NCBI GenBank assembly: GCA_029565915.1
Contig: JAKQNG010000042.1
Location: forward strand, 1 to 57,177
Direction of reading: 5' to 3'
DNA from: Deltaproteobacteria bacterium
Lineage (GTDB): Bacteria; Myxococcota_A; Polyangia; JAAYKL01
Length of the DNA stretch: 57,177 bases
Shown here: piece by piece, positions 1 through 4,270 of the stretch
Layout of the letters: every line of letters begins with the position of its first letter
Position numbering within the stretch: the first letter of the stretch is position 1
Made by a program: the position numbers and the translations under genes
Notes under the pieces: generated by a model
What the model was told of the DNA's origin: nothing
Seen by the model: only the letters and a program-made list of their open reading frames with translations
Databases searched by the model: none

Positions 1-121
1 TCCGCTGTTCGATGTCGTCGATGGATTTGAGGATGGGCGGGCCGAGGACCCGGCAGCCGTCTGCCGTAATGAGAATATCGTCTTCGATGCGGACGCCGCC
101 TTTGCCGAGGAATTTTTCTGC
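1..121. repeat. Left copy of 121-bp direct repeat (pepP 3' fragment)
   Basis: These bases are identical to 2899-3019, which lie inside the 3' part of pepP. The match breaks at base 122. It starts at the first base of the window, so the true length to the left cannot be seen. Read on the minus strand, this copy encodes only a C-terminal piece of aminopeptidase P, including the last metal-ligand motif GVRIEDD. It is therefore a gene remnant, the product of an insertion or duplication, or an assembly overlap. Confidence 0.95.
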
Positions 122-245
122 ACGGAAAATCGCTCAGTGTATCAATGGGCGAACTAGTAGGCCAGCGCACAAATCGCTGCCATTCACGACGCGGGGTGGA
201 CTTCCTTTCAGAAGTGCGGTAGCAAGCCAATTGGGAGGGACAATG
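122..245 (+). promoter_or_regulatory. Leader of the three-gene cassette with ribosome binding site
   Basis: This 124-bp non-coding stretch begins where the direct repeat ends. It contains a GGGAGGG ribosome binding site at 233-239, six bases before the chosen ATG at 246. No convincing -35/-10 pair stands out. Its composition is more AT-rich than the neighbouring host genes. The cassette promoter is expected here, or upstream of the window. Confidence 0.4.
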
Positions 246-896
246 ATGAAGGCCGAAATCGAAAACGCGTCGGTTGTCGTGCTTGGGAGCTTCAACCCGG
301 CGATCTTTCAGCCTGCTTGGTTTGGAGCGCAGGGGCTCATCACAGGCGAGGAAGTGACCGCCGCGAAGCTCGGGATGGTTCACCCAGAGATCGCGATTTT
401 CTCAACGGCTTGGTTCTCCCTTCAGGTCACCTCAGATCGTTTTCAGATCGAAACGGTCACACCTGATTCGTACCCTCTTCTTCGGGACCTAGTGACTGGA
501 ACCTTCACAATCCTGAGCCAGACCCCCGTGGCAAGAATGGGGCTGAACACAAGGCGGCATTATCGTTTCGATGCCGAGGAAAAGTGGCACGCGGTAGGCC
601 ACCTGTTGGCACCCAAAGAACCTTGGGCCGGGGTACTGAATGCGCCCGGAATGCGCGCTCTGGTCATGTGGGGCCAACGCGAAGGAACGGCCGCCAGTAA
701 AATTGAGGTCCGCGTAGAATCAGAAAGCCACGGGCGTCCCGACTACCGGATCTTCGTCGCAACGAATCATGACTATGTACTCAGGGGCGAAGGCGGCACG
801 CTACACATTTGCGAGCTTATCACAGCGGAGTGGGACGACATTTTGGCGTACGGTCGCACAACTGCGGAGTCACTTCTTCGAGTGGGCATGCCATGA
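246..896 (+). CDS. Unrecognised 216-aa protein, first gene of the inserted cassette
   Basis: I do not recognise this protein with confidence. It is soluble, about 216 residues, with no signal peptide or membrane segment, and mixes beta-strand-like blocks with aromatic motifs (FQPAWFG, FSTAWFSLQV, GLNTRRHY, WHAVGHLLAPKEPW). The middle section faintly recalls sporadically distributed TIGR04255-type proteins, but this is only an impression. ATG 246 is preferred over 243 because GGGAGGG at 233-239 is then correctly spaced. The reading frame continues upstream to base 12 only through the antisense of the pepP repeat, so the longer form is rejected. Its stop overlaps the next start as ATGA, which implies translational coupling. 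Its GC content is lower than that of the flanking genes, consistent with transfer. Confidence 0.75.
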   Translation: MKAEIENASVVVLGSFNPAIFQPAWFGAQGLITGEEVTAAKLGMVHPEIAIFSTAWFSLQVTSDRFQIETVTPDSYPLLRDLVTGTFTILSQTPVARMGLNTRRHYRFDAEEKWHAVGHLLAPKEPWAGVLNAPGMRALVMWGQREGTAASKIEVRVESESHGRPDYRIFVATNHDYVLRGEGGTLHICELITAEWDDILAYGRTTAESLLRVGMP

Positions 897-1549
897 ACAG
901 ACACGCAGCGGCTTCGGATCTCAACGCAAGGAAGGCACTTCGCGATGCCTCTGATGCTGTTCGGAAAGCTGGAGAGGGCTGGAACGCAGAAGGGGTCGTG
1001 TTGCCTTTCTCGAAAGTTTCCGAACAGAAGCAAAGCTCTATGGTATTGGGCCAACGCACAACAACCGAAACTGCCCCAACCGATATCGCGAGAGCCTGTG
1101 GCGACGGCGCCCTACAAGAAGAGCAGCAGAACGACACTGTAGCCGACACTCTAATCGATGCCGCCAAGATCGCGTCAAGTCAGCGTTCGGAGAACCTACC
1201 AACAATCCGAGCCTCTTTCGATCTTCTCCAACAGTGGGTTTGTACAGTTGTCTCCATCGGCGATGGCGAGTTCGTCGCCATCGCGAGAGACAAGATGAAC
1301 CCAGAGTGCCCCGACGAAGAGGTCGTTTTCGACTGCGCTGATGTTAACGACGCCGACAGTCAGCTTCTGGAAATCGGCGCCGTGTTCTATTGGAGTGTTG
1401 GCTATCGCATTTCAGAGTGGGGGCAGAAGACCAAGGGATCGGAGCTTCGTTTCCGTCGCCTCCCGGCGTGGAATAAACGAGAGCTTGCTGCCGCCGAGAA
1501 GAGGGCGGAGGAACTCGGTCTACTGTTTGTAGAAGATGGCAACGCCTAG
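893..1549 (+). CDS. Unrecognised 218-aa protein, second gene of the cassette
   Basis: This gene overlaps the previous one by four bases (ATGA) and the next by 14 bases, so the three genes form one translationally coupled unit. The first ~110 residues are charged and low in structure signals. The last ~100 look like a compact beta domain with motifs LLQQWVCTVV, GEFVAIARD, EIGAVFYWSVGY and ELRFRRLPAW, followed by a C-terminal helix rich in Ala and Glu. There is no signal peptide or membrane segment. I cannot name the family. The conserved-looking aromatic motifs and tight coupling suggest it works with the neighbouring hydrolase, possibly as an adaptor or recognition subunit, but that is inference. 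Confidence 0.75.
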   Translation: MNRHAAASDLNARKALRDASDAVRKAGEGWNAEGVVLPFSKVSEQKQSSMVLGQRTTTETAPTDIARACGDGALQEEQQNDTVADTLIDAAKIASSQRSENLPTIRASFDLLQQWVCTVVSIGDGEFVAIARDKMNPECPDEEVVFDCADVNDADSQLLEIGAVFYWSVGYRISEWGQKTKGSELRFRRLPAWNKRELAAAEKRAEELGLLFVEDGNA

Positions 1550-2660
1550 CCCTGTGCTTGAAGCGCCTCCAGAAGCAACCGAAATCGAGGTGTCGCTGTT
1601 CGGGCCGGGAGTCGGAGAGTGCGTCGTCCTGCACCTCGGCGGCGGGTTCTGGATAGTCGTAGATTCCTGTTTAGACAGGACCACAAGACACCCTGTGGCG
1701 CTTGAGTACCTTCGCAGCTTGGAGGTTCCAGTCCATACGGCACTCAAGAGACTCATCCTGACGCACTGGCATGACGACCATATCCGCGGTGCTGCCGAGT
1801 TGTTGCGAGAAGCGACTGAGGCACAGCTATGGATCTCTGGCGCTCTCAGCAGTATTCAATTCCGCTCTCTTGTAGGTCTCAAACACCCAAGCGGCGGACC
1901 CAGAGGCGTTCAAGAGATGGACGAACTCTTCCGCATCATGAAGAGCCGCAAAGCCGAGGGAGCCCACCGCGCCGGATACAATCTGAAACTGGCGAACGAG
2001 AACACCCCGCTTGTTCGCCTAGCTGCACCTCACGCGGTCGAAGTAACATCTCTCTCTCCGTCGTCGGAGTCTACCCTGCTTGCTGTGGCGGAGTTCGCCC
2101 GTTTGCTGCCGAAAGACGCGGCTCCTGTGAACGACATCCGGCTTGGTCCCAACGATGCTGCCGTCGTTCTTCATGTCAAAGTGGGCGAACGCTCGGTGCT
2201 CCTTGGATCGGATTTGGAAAACCGTGGCGATCCTCGCCTTGGATGGCGCGCTATTGTCGATTCTGCCGAACGTCCCCAGGACAGAGCAGAGGTCTTCAAG
2301 GTCGCCCATCACGGCTCGCAGACCGGGCACGAGCCGAACGTCTGGACAGATATGCTGGTGCCGGACCCTTGCGCCTTGCTCACACCGTACAGGTCGTTAA
2401 TCACCCCACTCCCCACAGAGAAGGACATCAGTCGGCTAGCCTCTCTGACATCGAAAGTGTTTCTCACAGCCTCGCCACGGACGAAAGAACCTCCCGCACG
2501 TTCCAGAACAGTAGAGAAGATTGTGAAAGATAGCGTTCTCGGACGGACTGTCCGCGAAAGTACTGTTGGTCACATTCGCCTACGAGCGCCGATCTACGGC
2601 CACGCAGACTGGCGGGTAGAATTGTTCAACGGAGCGTATCAGATCACCGACGTCGCCTAA
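1536..2660 (+). CDS. Metallo-beta-lactamase-fold hydrolase (ComEC C-terminal-like)
   Basis: This 374-residue protein carries the hallmark MBL metal site. The HxHxDH motif is in LTHWHDDHIRG near residues 76-86, an Asp ligand is in LLGSDLENR near 223-231, and a His pair is in VAHHGSQTGHE near 255-265. The VAHHGS form is typical of the ComEC/Rec2 C-terminal MBL branch, which includes nucleases and other phosphodiesterases. Here it stands alone, without ComEC membrane segments or a signal peptide, so it should act in the cytoplasm. It begins inside the end of the preceding gene and is the last gene of the cassette. Its substrate cannot be read from sequence; a nucleic acid or nucleotide is possible. 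Composition matches the rest of the cassette. Confidence 0.9.
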   Translation: MATPSPVLEAPPEATEIEVSLFGPGVGECVVLHLGGGFWIVVDSCLDRTTRHPVALEYLRSLEVPVHTALKRLILTHWHDDHIRGAAELLREATEAQLWISGALSSIQFRSLVGLKHPSGGPRGVQEMDELFRIMKSRKAEGAHRAGYNLKLANENTPLVRLAAPHAVEVTSLSPSSESTLLAVAEFARLLPKDAAPVNDIRLGPNDAAVVLHVKVGERSVLLGSDLENRGDPRLGWRAIVDSAERPQDRAEVFKVAHHGSQTGHEPNVWTDMLVPDPCALLTPYRSLITPLPTEKDISRLASLTSKVFLTASPRTKEPPARSRTVEKIVKDSVLGRTVRESTVGHIRLRAPIYGHADWRVELFNGAYQITDVA

Positions 2661-2821
2661 CCAATTCGCCCTCTCGATATTTCTCCGATGGCTGCTGGAA
2701 GTGGTTTTCTGTGTTACCTGTCGTGGCGACCCCAGATAATCGCTGGAAGCAATTCTCAGAAGCATCGTACCGCTGTTTACTCGAACCCGGTAGGACCTAT
2801 CGCAAAGCCGTGAAGCGGGAA
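2661..2821. other. Short non-coding right end of the cassette
   Basis: This 161-bp stretch separates the MBL gene from the convergent pepP stop. No gene, strong hairpin, transposon-like terminal inverted repeat or tRNA fragment was seen, so it gives no sign of how the cassette arrived. Confidence 0.4.
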
Positions 2822-4270
2822 TCAGGACGTCGGAACGCGCGATGGTCCGGGGATATCATGCCCCTGAAAACGGCTCCCACACCCCCGGACCTGCTTCATC
2901 CGCTGTTCGATGTCGTCGATGGATTTGAGGATGGGCGGGCCGAGGACCCGGCAGCCGTCTGCCGTAATGAGAATATCGTCTTCGATGCGGACGCCGCCTT
3001 TGCCGAGGAATTTTTCTGCTTCGTCGTAGTTGATGAAGCTGTCGTGGCGACGTTTCGCGCGCCACATCCCCACCAGCGCCGGAATGAAATACAATCCCGG
3101 TTCCACGGTGATGACAAACCCCGGCTGCAGGGCTTTGGCGAGGCGCAGATACGACAGGCCGAACTGGCCCGAGCGCCCCTCGTCCTCCGGATAGCCCACC
3201 GCGTCGCCCAGATCCTCCATGTCGTGCACGTCGATGCCGAGCATGTGCCCGATGCCGTGGGGAAAAAAGAGCGCATGGGCGCCCTGCTGTACCGCCTCGT
3301 CCGGGTCCCCTTTCATGAGCCCCATGGCCTGCAGCCCGTCCACCAGCGCCCGGCAGGCAATGCGGTGGACGTCCCGGTTGGACACCTCTGGCGATGCGGC
3401 AGCGATGGCCAGCTCCTGGGCCCGCAGCACCGCGGCATAGACCATTTTCTGCCGGGCATCAAAGGCGCCCCCCACGGGAAACGTCCGCGTGATATCGGAG
3501 CAGTAGGCAAAGGGCGGCATTTCCACCCCCGTGTCGATGAGCAGCAGGTCCCCCTGCGCCAGCGTGTTTTCGCAGCGTTCGTTGTGCAGGATTTCGCCGC
3601 GCACGGTGACAATGGGCGCAAACGCGCTGGACAGATTCCGCGCCAGGGCCACGGCCTCCATGGCCGAGCGCACCGCCGCCTCAGTGGCACCGGGGCCCAT
3701 CACCGCCAGCGCCGCGTCATACATATCCTTCGACACGGAGATGGCTGCTTCGATCTGCGCGACTTCCTCATCGGACTTCCGCGCGCGCTGTTCCACCACC
3801 GCCCGGGCCAGAGCGCGGTCCGCTTGTTCGCTCACCTGTGCCGGGGACATTCCCAGCAACCGGCAGAGCCACAGGGTACGCTCCGCCCGCACGGGGGGCA
3901 GCCAGCGGATGGGTTCTCCGGCGGCCTGCAGTCGCGCCAGCGCGCCTTCGAGGGCACTCGCCGGTTCCACGCGTTCGATGCCCGCGGCCCGGGCGAGATC
4001 CGCCGGTTCCGGACCGGGGCCGCTCCAGATGAGGGAATCCGCGGAAGGGGCGTCGCCGTACAGAACGGCCTCACCCCCTTGAAACACGATCAGGGCCACA
4101 TCGGCCGCATCGATTCCCGTGTAGTAGAGAAAGTGGGAATCCTGCCGGAACGGATAGGTGTTCCGCGGATAATTGCGGGGCGCCGGCCCGTTGGCAAAGA
4201 GGACAATCGCACCGCCTGCCACCTGCTGCCGGAGAAGGTGTCGCCGCTGCGCGAAAGTGAATGGATTCAT
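2822..4270 (-). CDS. pepP: Xaa-Pro aminopeptidase (aminopeptidase P, M24B)
   Basis: This enzyme removes N-terminal residues that precede proline. The 482-residue protein has the AMP_N-type N-terminal domain (residues ~1-130, with YPFRQDSHFLYYTG) followed by the pita-bread M24 catalytic domain. The five metal ligands are all visible: Asp in LLIDTG, Asp in YCSDITRTFP, His in HGIGHMLGIDVHD, Glu in ITVEPGLY and Glu in GVRIEDD. The end of the gene overlaps the 121-bp direct repeat. The last ~26 residues, encoded by 2822-2898, lie beyond the repeat and may be a chimeric tail rather than the native end. It follows a small lipoprotein gene by 25 bp on the same strand. Confidence 0.93.
   Translation of the reverse strand: MNPFTFAQRRHLLRQQVAGGAIVLFANGPAPRNYPRNTYPFRQDSHFLYYTGIDAADVALIVFQGGEAVLYGDAPSADSLIWSGPGPEPADLARAAGIERVEPASALEGALARLQAAGEPIRWLPPVRAERTLWLCRLLGMSPAQVSEQADRALARAVVEQRARKSDEEVAQIEAAISVSKDMYDAALAVMGPGATEAAVRSAMEAVALARNLSSAFAPIVTVRGEILHNERCENTLAQGDLLLIDTGVEMPPFAYCSDITRTFPVGGAFDARQKMVYAAVLRAQELAIAAASPEVSNRDVHRIACRALVDGLQAMGLMKGDPDEAVQQGAHALFFPHGIGHMLGIDVHDMEDLGDAVGYPEDEGRSGQFGLSYLRLAKALQPGFVITVEPGLYFIPALVGMWRAKRRHDSFINYDEAEKFLGKGGVRIEDDILITADGCRVLGPPILKSIDDIEQRMKQVRGCGSRFQGHDIPGPSRVPTS
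2899..3019. repeat. Right copy of 121-bp direct repeat, inside pepP
   Basis: This is the second copy of the sequence at 1-121 and is identical base for base. It lies in frame within the full-length pepP gene and encodes the region from the last Glu metal ligand to DDIEQR. If it marks a recombination junction, the cassette (122-2898) was introduced here and pepP was restored by the duplicated end. Confidence 0.95.

Follow-up and report, generated by a model that had tools for sequence, protein, structure and literature searches.

A widespread P1-P2-MBL gene trio, a candidate mobile anti-phage system with a stand-alone ComEC-like MBL protein

The window, that is, the whole stretch of 57,177 nucleotides of DNA analysed here, begins with a cassette, some 2.9 kb long, that carries three genes on the forward strand, which we call P1, P2 and MBL. 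The P1 gene (positions 243/246-896) encodes a product of 216-217 aa and, in our reading of the frame, starts at ATGATG, preceded by GGGAGGGA. It is followed by the P2 gene (893-1549; 218 aa) and the MBL gene (1536-2660; 374 aa, Pfam Lactamase_B 1.3e-7). The initial annotation had described an ATGA overlap between P1 and P2 and a 14-bp overlap between P2 and MBL, and the open reading frames agree with both. Scanning the cassette for promoters and terminators yielded no signal beyond chance level. The trio is single-copy within its host genome.

Foreign composition and a likely insertion site had also been claimed for the cassette. The GC content is indeed lower there, at 0.57-0.58 in bases 1-3000 against mostly 0.60-0.69 elsewhere in the window, and the insertion site is real: the 3' part of pepP flanks the cassette on both sides as a perfect direct repeat of 121 bp. 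The left copy (1-121) is 100% identical to the right copy (2899-3019), which lies inside an intact pepP on the reverse strand (2822-4270), the host gene at the insertion site, encoding an M24 Xaa-Pro aminopeptidase (Pfam AMP_N 1.6e-21, Peptidase_M24 1.4e-44). The contig of the window (C56) starts within the left repeat. Three further pepP 3' fragments, 91-97% identical, were found at the end of another contig of the same genome (C162, at 81819, 82874 and 92221), where they stand between other cargo segments; this suggests that insertions occurred serially at the 3' end of pepP. As 115 identical bases are common to the end of C162 and the start of C56, the two contigs may be neighbours. The array of cargo segments punctuated by pepP 3' fragments extends over C162 81819-92351 (L086 6819-17351), and the cargo between two of the fragments (L086 10023-16338) encodes four radical-SAM-type proteins with CxxxCxxC motifs, one of them with a B12-binding-like front, together with a protein of 184 aa whose repeats are rich in Tyr and Ser (YSDYSDSTTYSEYSE...); this segment is possibly a cluster for peptide modification. 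No integrase-like gene was seen when the ORFs of the trio cassette and of C162 were read by eye. Two copies of the trio are carried by plasmids, one of which is conjugative; recombinase or tyrosine-integrase genes were noticed near the plasmid copies (L118 4109-4678, L119 5223-12138).

The MBL protein indeed has the complete metal site that had been ascribed to it, since HWHDDH (residues 77-82), GSDLEN (with D226) and AHHGS (258-261) are all present and conserved. Residues D43, H77, H79, D81, H82, E127, N206, D226, H259 and P293 are invariant in 76/76 MBL homologues, and H258 is conserved in 75 of the 76. The ComEC membrane parts are absent, as had been stated: the protein has 374 aa with Lactamase_B as its sole Pfam match, and its TIGR00361 score is 28 bits, where the cut-off is 190. 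By profile, its nearest solved structures are the ComEC nuclease domains 9ic4 and 30bt, and it bears the ComEC/Rec2-type N-x-x-S, LLxxD and HHGS motifs. Its metal motif, however, reads HxHxDH, against HxDxDH in the ComEC and LmuA-like proteins examined, and the stretch leading from this motif to the N206 strand is longer than in ComEC by about 45 residues (114-132 vs about 75). Judged by their spacing, D226 and HHGS are not separated by a second insertion, and there is no 'HP' after HHGS. The MBL superfamily includes phosphodiesterases and NTP hydrolases; given its many chemistries, and since HxHxDH differs from the HxDxDH of ComEC and the gated nucleases, DNase activity is not assured for this protein. 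In a midpoint-rooted tree of 46 MBLs, which has some low supports and leaves out authentic HamM and CanC sequences, the MBLs of the trio group with those of L134 and L136, apart from the LmuA-like and 6A proteins. Membership of Avs1a, 6A-MBL or LmuA was rejected on scores far below the family cut-offs or on separate branching. The L134 and L136 MBLs, the nearest to the trio clade, have no P1 or P2 in the stretch fetched for them, and may represent ancestors or different systems.

The two partner proteins belong to no recognised family, in line with the initial annotation. Neither P1 nor P2 has a match in Pfam, NCBIfam or PADLOC, their matches in PHROG are weak and of unknown function there, and profile searches of the PDB with both found nothing. 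Alignments of 69 P1 and 70 P2 sequences contain no conserved Ser/Cys-His-Asp set. The AlphaFold2 model of P1 (pLDDT 95.4, pTM 0.90) predicts a duplicated alpha/beta fold with the element order S1-H1-S2-S3-S4-S5-H2; the same order then recurs in a slightly reduced form, where S2 is very short. This duplicated order is that of the TATA-binding protein (TBP). Fold comparison of the model gave one relative at TM 0.60 in a viral library, where giant-virus TBP/VETF-like proteins scored about 0.2-0.35, and RepDE and AdoMetDC at about 0.3-0.4 in the PDB, with no TBP among the best 50 matches. We therefore treat the TBP-likeness of the modelled P1, which combines this strand order with weak structure matches, as a lead. 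Assignment of P1 to TIGR04255 (sporadic family) was tried and rejected (hhalign probability 0.4%, E=0.13). TBP-like domains are reported to be fused to nucleases, RNase LS and RNase HIII, in bacterial conflict systems (PMC3710099). The P2 model comprises a helix (9-31), a disordered linker and a barrel (about 105-190) of the order strand-strand-strand-helix-strand-strand, with high pLDDT at 105-216. Its Foldseek matches in the PDB are mostly OB folds (LysRS, exosome S1, AspRS OB, SSB, RPA), all of them weak (E>0.02), so that an OB-like nature of the modelled C-terminal domain is a weak lead. P1 is a candidate sensor or adaptor and P2 a candidate nucleic-acid-binding adaptor.

We scanned 84,980 species genomes for relatives of the MBL protein and found 114, of which 80 were kept (30-43% identity); going by the record titles, they come from Acidobacteria, Planctomycetes, Nitrospirae, Chloroflexi, Bacteroidetes, Spirochaetes, Gemmatimonadota, Proteobacteria and others, and a scan of IMG/VR added 25 more. 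Loci with at least 1.3 kb ahead of the MBL frame were taken as testable (n=94) and searched with P1, P2 and MBL profiles. Both P1 and P2 were present in 92/94 of them, invariably in the order P1-P2-MBL, and the two exceptions (L019 and L068) had kept P2 and MBL and lost P1. As this order recurs in 92 of 94 unrelated loci, chance is ruled out as its explanation. Where all three genes were called (69 loci), the median gaps were -4 bp for P1/P2 and -8 bp for P2/MBL, and P2 and MBL overlapped in 60. The search was also performed from the P1 side in 379 genomes of the phylum: all six strong matches carried the whole trio, and three weak P1-like half matches stood without it. Hence the idea that the three genes recur as a unit in unrelated genomes held from both ends (92/94 from the MBL side, 6/6 from the P1 side), and the opposite possibility, that the partners never co-occur with MBL, did not; the trio is obligate in its composition. 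Its loci span more than 15 phyla as well as prophages, and its occurrence is patchy (6 of the 379 phylum genomes). Neither the MBL nor P1 of the trio was found among INPHARED phage records. Several copies have decayed, with P1 frameshifted in L047 and interrupted by a stop in L004, and MBL carrying stops in L012 and L030, which is what one expects if the system is accessory and subject to gain and loss. Distant P1-like N-terminal halves occur at L117, L128, L129 and L130 with no P2 or MBL nearby, and perhaps hint at a wider P1 superfamily with other partners.

The settings of these copies are of several kinds. In three prophages of the phage P2 type (L100, L104 and L106), the trio lies between the portal gene Q (phrog_68, E about 1e-170) and the replication nickase gene gpA (phrog_91, E about 1e-267 or better). 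This gpA-gpQ interval of P2 phages, the home of old and tin, is an anti-phage hotspot (Rousset et al. 2022, PMC9122126; Vassallo et al. 2022, PMC9519451). In Escherichia coli, 17 of 5,426 complete genomes carry the trio, in three diverged sequence variants (P1 42% and MBL 45-48% identity in the variants compared). Each E. coli copy inspected lies in a prophage, in the interval between the holin and antiterminator Q genes and antisense to the lysis genes, a slot that appears to be an exchange site for trio variants. The three variants are seen in this one slot at L171, L120 and L172. At five further loci (L027, L035, L037, L060 and L075) the trio is in or beside an Hma-like operon, and at L037 the order is HmaC(DUF499)-159aa-P1-P2-MBL-HmaB(DUF1156)-helicase with gaps of 0-9 bp. 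The interval between HmaC and P1 holds a 159-178 aa protein with no PADLOC match at L037 (6191-6667) and L075 (6133-6666). Since these metagenome-assembled genomes may share ancestry, the five loci are not counted as five independent events, and the embedding is an anatomical argument, not a statistical one. The defence-island setting that the initial annotation had singled out for checking stands in part: the trio occupies defence locations in the P2 Q-A slot, the prophage Q-holin slot and the Hma-like operons, but most of its chromosomal neighbours are ordinary housekeeping genes, with the Hma-like and type IIG genes as exceptions.

The P1 homologue of E. coli strains E8 and MEI148-20EC, WP_000143147.1 (at L173 3001-3717 and L174 2001-2717), is named 'anti-phage protein' in RefSeq. 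A variant differing in one residue, WP_249925928.1, is named 'hypothetical', so the name seems tied to one specific record. With this name a defence role becomes more likely, and it becomes less likely that the system is unseen by others. We found no published source for the name, no literature on the trio or on its accessions, and no phage-resistance datum traceable to a publication; no MBL system is named in the main text of Vassallo 2022, which covers 21 systems, or in that of DefensePredictor 2026. The earlier description of the system as undescribed is made uncertain by the RefSeq name, which suggests that its activity has already been seen or predicted; the trio is probably not yet described mechanistically.

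Taken together, the 92/94 co-occurrence, the prophage hotspots, the Hma-like operons and the RefSeq name support the earlier proposal of a mobile defence or conflict module. We argue that the trio is, on balance, probably a mobile and self-contained system against phages or other mobile elements, made of a P1/P2 recognition module and an MBL nuclease effector; in the genome of the window, too, its role is presumably defensive. P1, with its predicted duplicated alpha/beta fold, and P2, with its predicted OB-like barrel and flexible linker, would form the recognition module, and their putative binding and sensing of nucleic acid would allow them to detect nucleic-acid structures that are foreign or in replication, or a phage protein attached to these. 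They would then position or activate the ComEC-like, metal-dependent MBL nuclease, which in turn would cut phage DNA or kill the infected cell. For HamM, DNase activity of the MBL effector is proven, and AVAST and Canu require their MBL effectors; by the HamM precedent an MBL of this type can be a latent DNase (PMC12799240). DNA is the presumed substrate of the presumed DNase here, and we infer that its activation proceeds without proteolysis. A more far-reaching version, which we hold to be possible yet doubtful, is that of a hitherto uncharacterised immune system spread across phyla. In it, a saddle protein of the TBP-like kind would act jointly with an OB-fold protein to recognise a foreign structure of nucleic acid, and the two would activate a nuclease derived from ComEC with no protease, ATPase or second messenger; the system would act alone in prophages and would also plug into the methylation-based defence of the Hma type as a nuclease module.

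Other explanations were weighed against the same evidence. The tight translational coupling with the enzyme gene last, the patchy distribution on prophages and plasmids, and the existence of degraded copies (L047, L004, L012 and L030) would all fit abortive infection of the toxin-antitoxin kind, in which an MBL toxin (DNase or RNase) is restrained by P1 and/or P2 and freed once transcription or translation in the host is upset by a phage. We consider this unlikely, as there are two conserved partners, larger than typical antitoxins, with no HTH-type regulator, and the two loci devoid of P1 still retain MBL and P2. It is rather improbable, too, that the MBL acts under P1-P2 control on a nucleotide signal or pool, as a phosphodiesterase or NTP hydrolase, and not on nucleic acid. 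Such enzymes do occur in the superfamily, and the classical binuclear motif is HxHxDH, where ComEC and the LmuA-like proteins examined have HxDxDH; against this, ComEC nuclease domains are the closest to the MBL profile among solved structures, and the modelled P2 resembles a nucleic-acid-binding OB fold.

A set serving the maintenance or competition of prophages and mobile elements and not aimed at phages, such as one that keeps plasmids out or blocks DNA uptake, or a cargo for lysogenic conversion, would suit the antisense Q-holin position of the E. coli copies, which is a general cargo slot, and the many chromosomal copies far from defence genes. The embedding in Hma-like operons, the old/tin slot of phage P2 and the 'anti-phage protein' name make it very unlikely. 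Least of all do we expect a gated pro-nuclease branch that relies on an unlinked host protease to activate the MBL; the about 45 extra residues could accommodate gating insertions of the HamM type, but the cassette has no protease partner, the trio MBLs branch apart from the LmuA-like and 6A MBLs, and the second insertion, between D226 and HHGS, is missing.

If the preferred reading of a P1/P2 recognition module with an MBL nuclease effector is true, the trio is a compact and very widespread antiviral system which uses a nuclease of the HamM/Canu type under a new, protease-free control, and it adds two protein families without a curated name to MBL-effector immunity. Since E. coli prophages carry it, including one in the reference strain ECOR29, the trigger, the chemistry of the effector and the role of the trio as an add-on to Hma-type systems are directly testable in laboratory E. 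coli.

Among known systems, a three-gene system from the phage P2 hotspot, with no recognised domains and active against phage P1, was reported by Rousset et al. 2022 (PMC9122126). Compared by its description only, it shares the gene number and the P2 locus with L100, L104 and L106, but it has no clear domain whereas the MBL of the trio is readily recognised. The Hma systems (HmaA helicase, HmaB DUF1156 methylase and HmaC DUF499 ATPase) adjoin or enclose the trio in the five loci described above; no Hma gene is present in the window cassette or with the trio at most loci. The 6A-MBL anti-phage system protein (NF058524) is likewise a ComEC-like MBL enzyme of an anti-phage system, but the window MBL matches it at E=0.0022, far under the cut-off, and lies on a separate tree branch. 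ComEC also carries an OB domain, which P2 may possibly supply in trans in the trio. With the MBL domain of ComEC/Rec2 (9ic4, 30bt) the trio MBL has in common the N..S(V) strand, LLG(A/S)DLE and K(V)xHHGS; it differs in lacking a membrane channel, in the third histidine of HxHxDH and in its C-terminal tail, which is distinct and closes with a conserved W-x-VELF. The protease-gated MBL nucleases (Hachiman HamM, AVAST type 1, Lamassu and Canu; Tuck et al. 2025, PMC12799240) are likewise stand-alone ComEC-type MBLs in compact antiviral operons. Of the two disordered gating insertions with cleavage residues that mark them, one may have a counterpart in the about 45 extra residues that follow the HxxxDH motif in the trio MBL. 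They have a trypsin or caspase partner and HxDxDH, whereas the trio has HxHxDH and no protease: P1 and P2 match no protease family, and no protease is frequent among the neighbours of the trio. Thus, in view of the missing protease and of the lack of clade membership, the trio is not filed under the protease-gated nucleases, from which it is set apart by two partners of unnamed family and by an MBL branch separate from the LmuA-like proteins.
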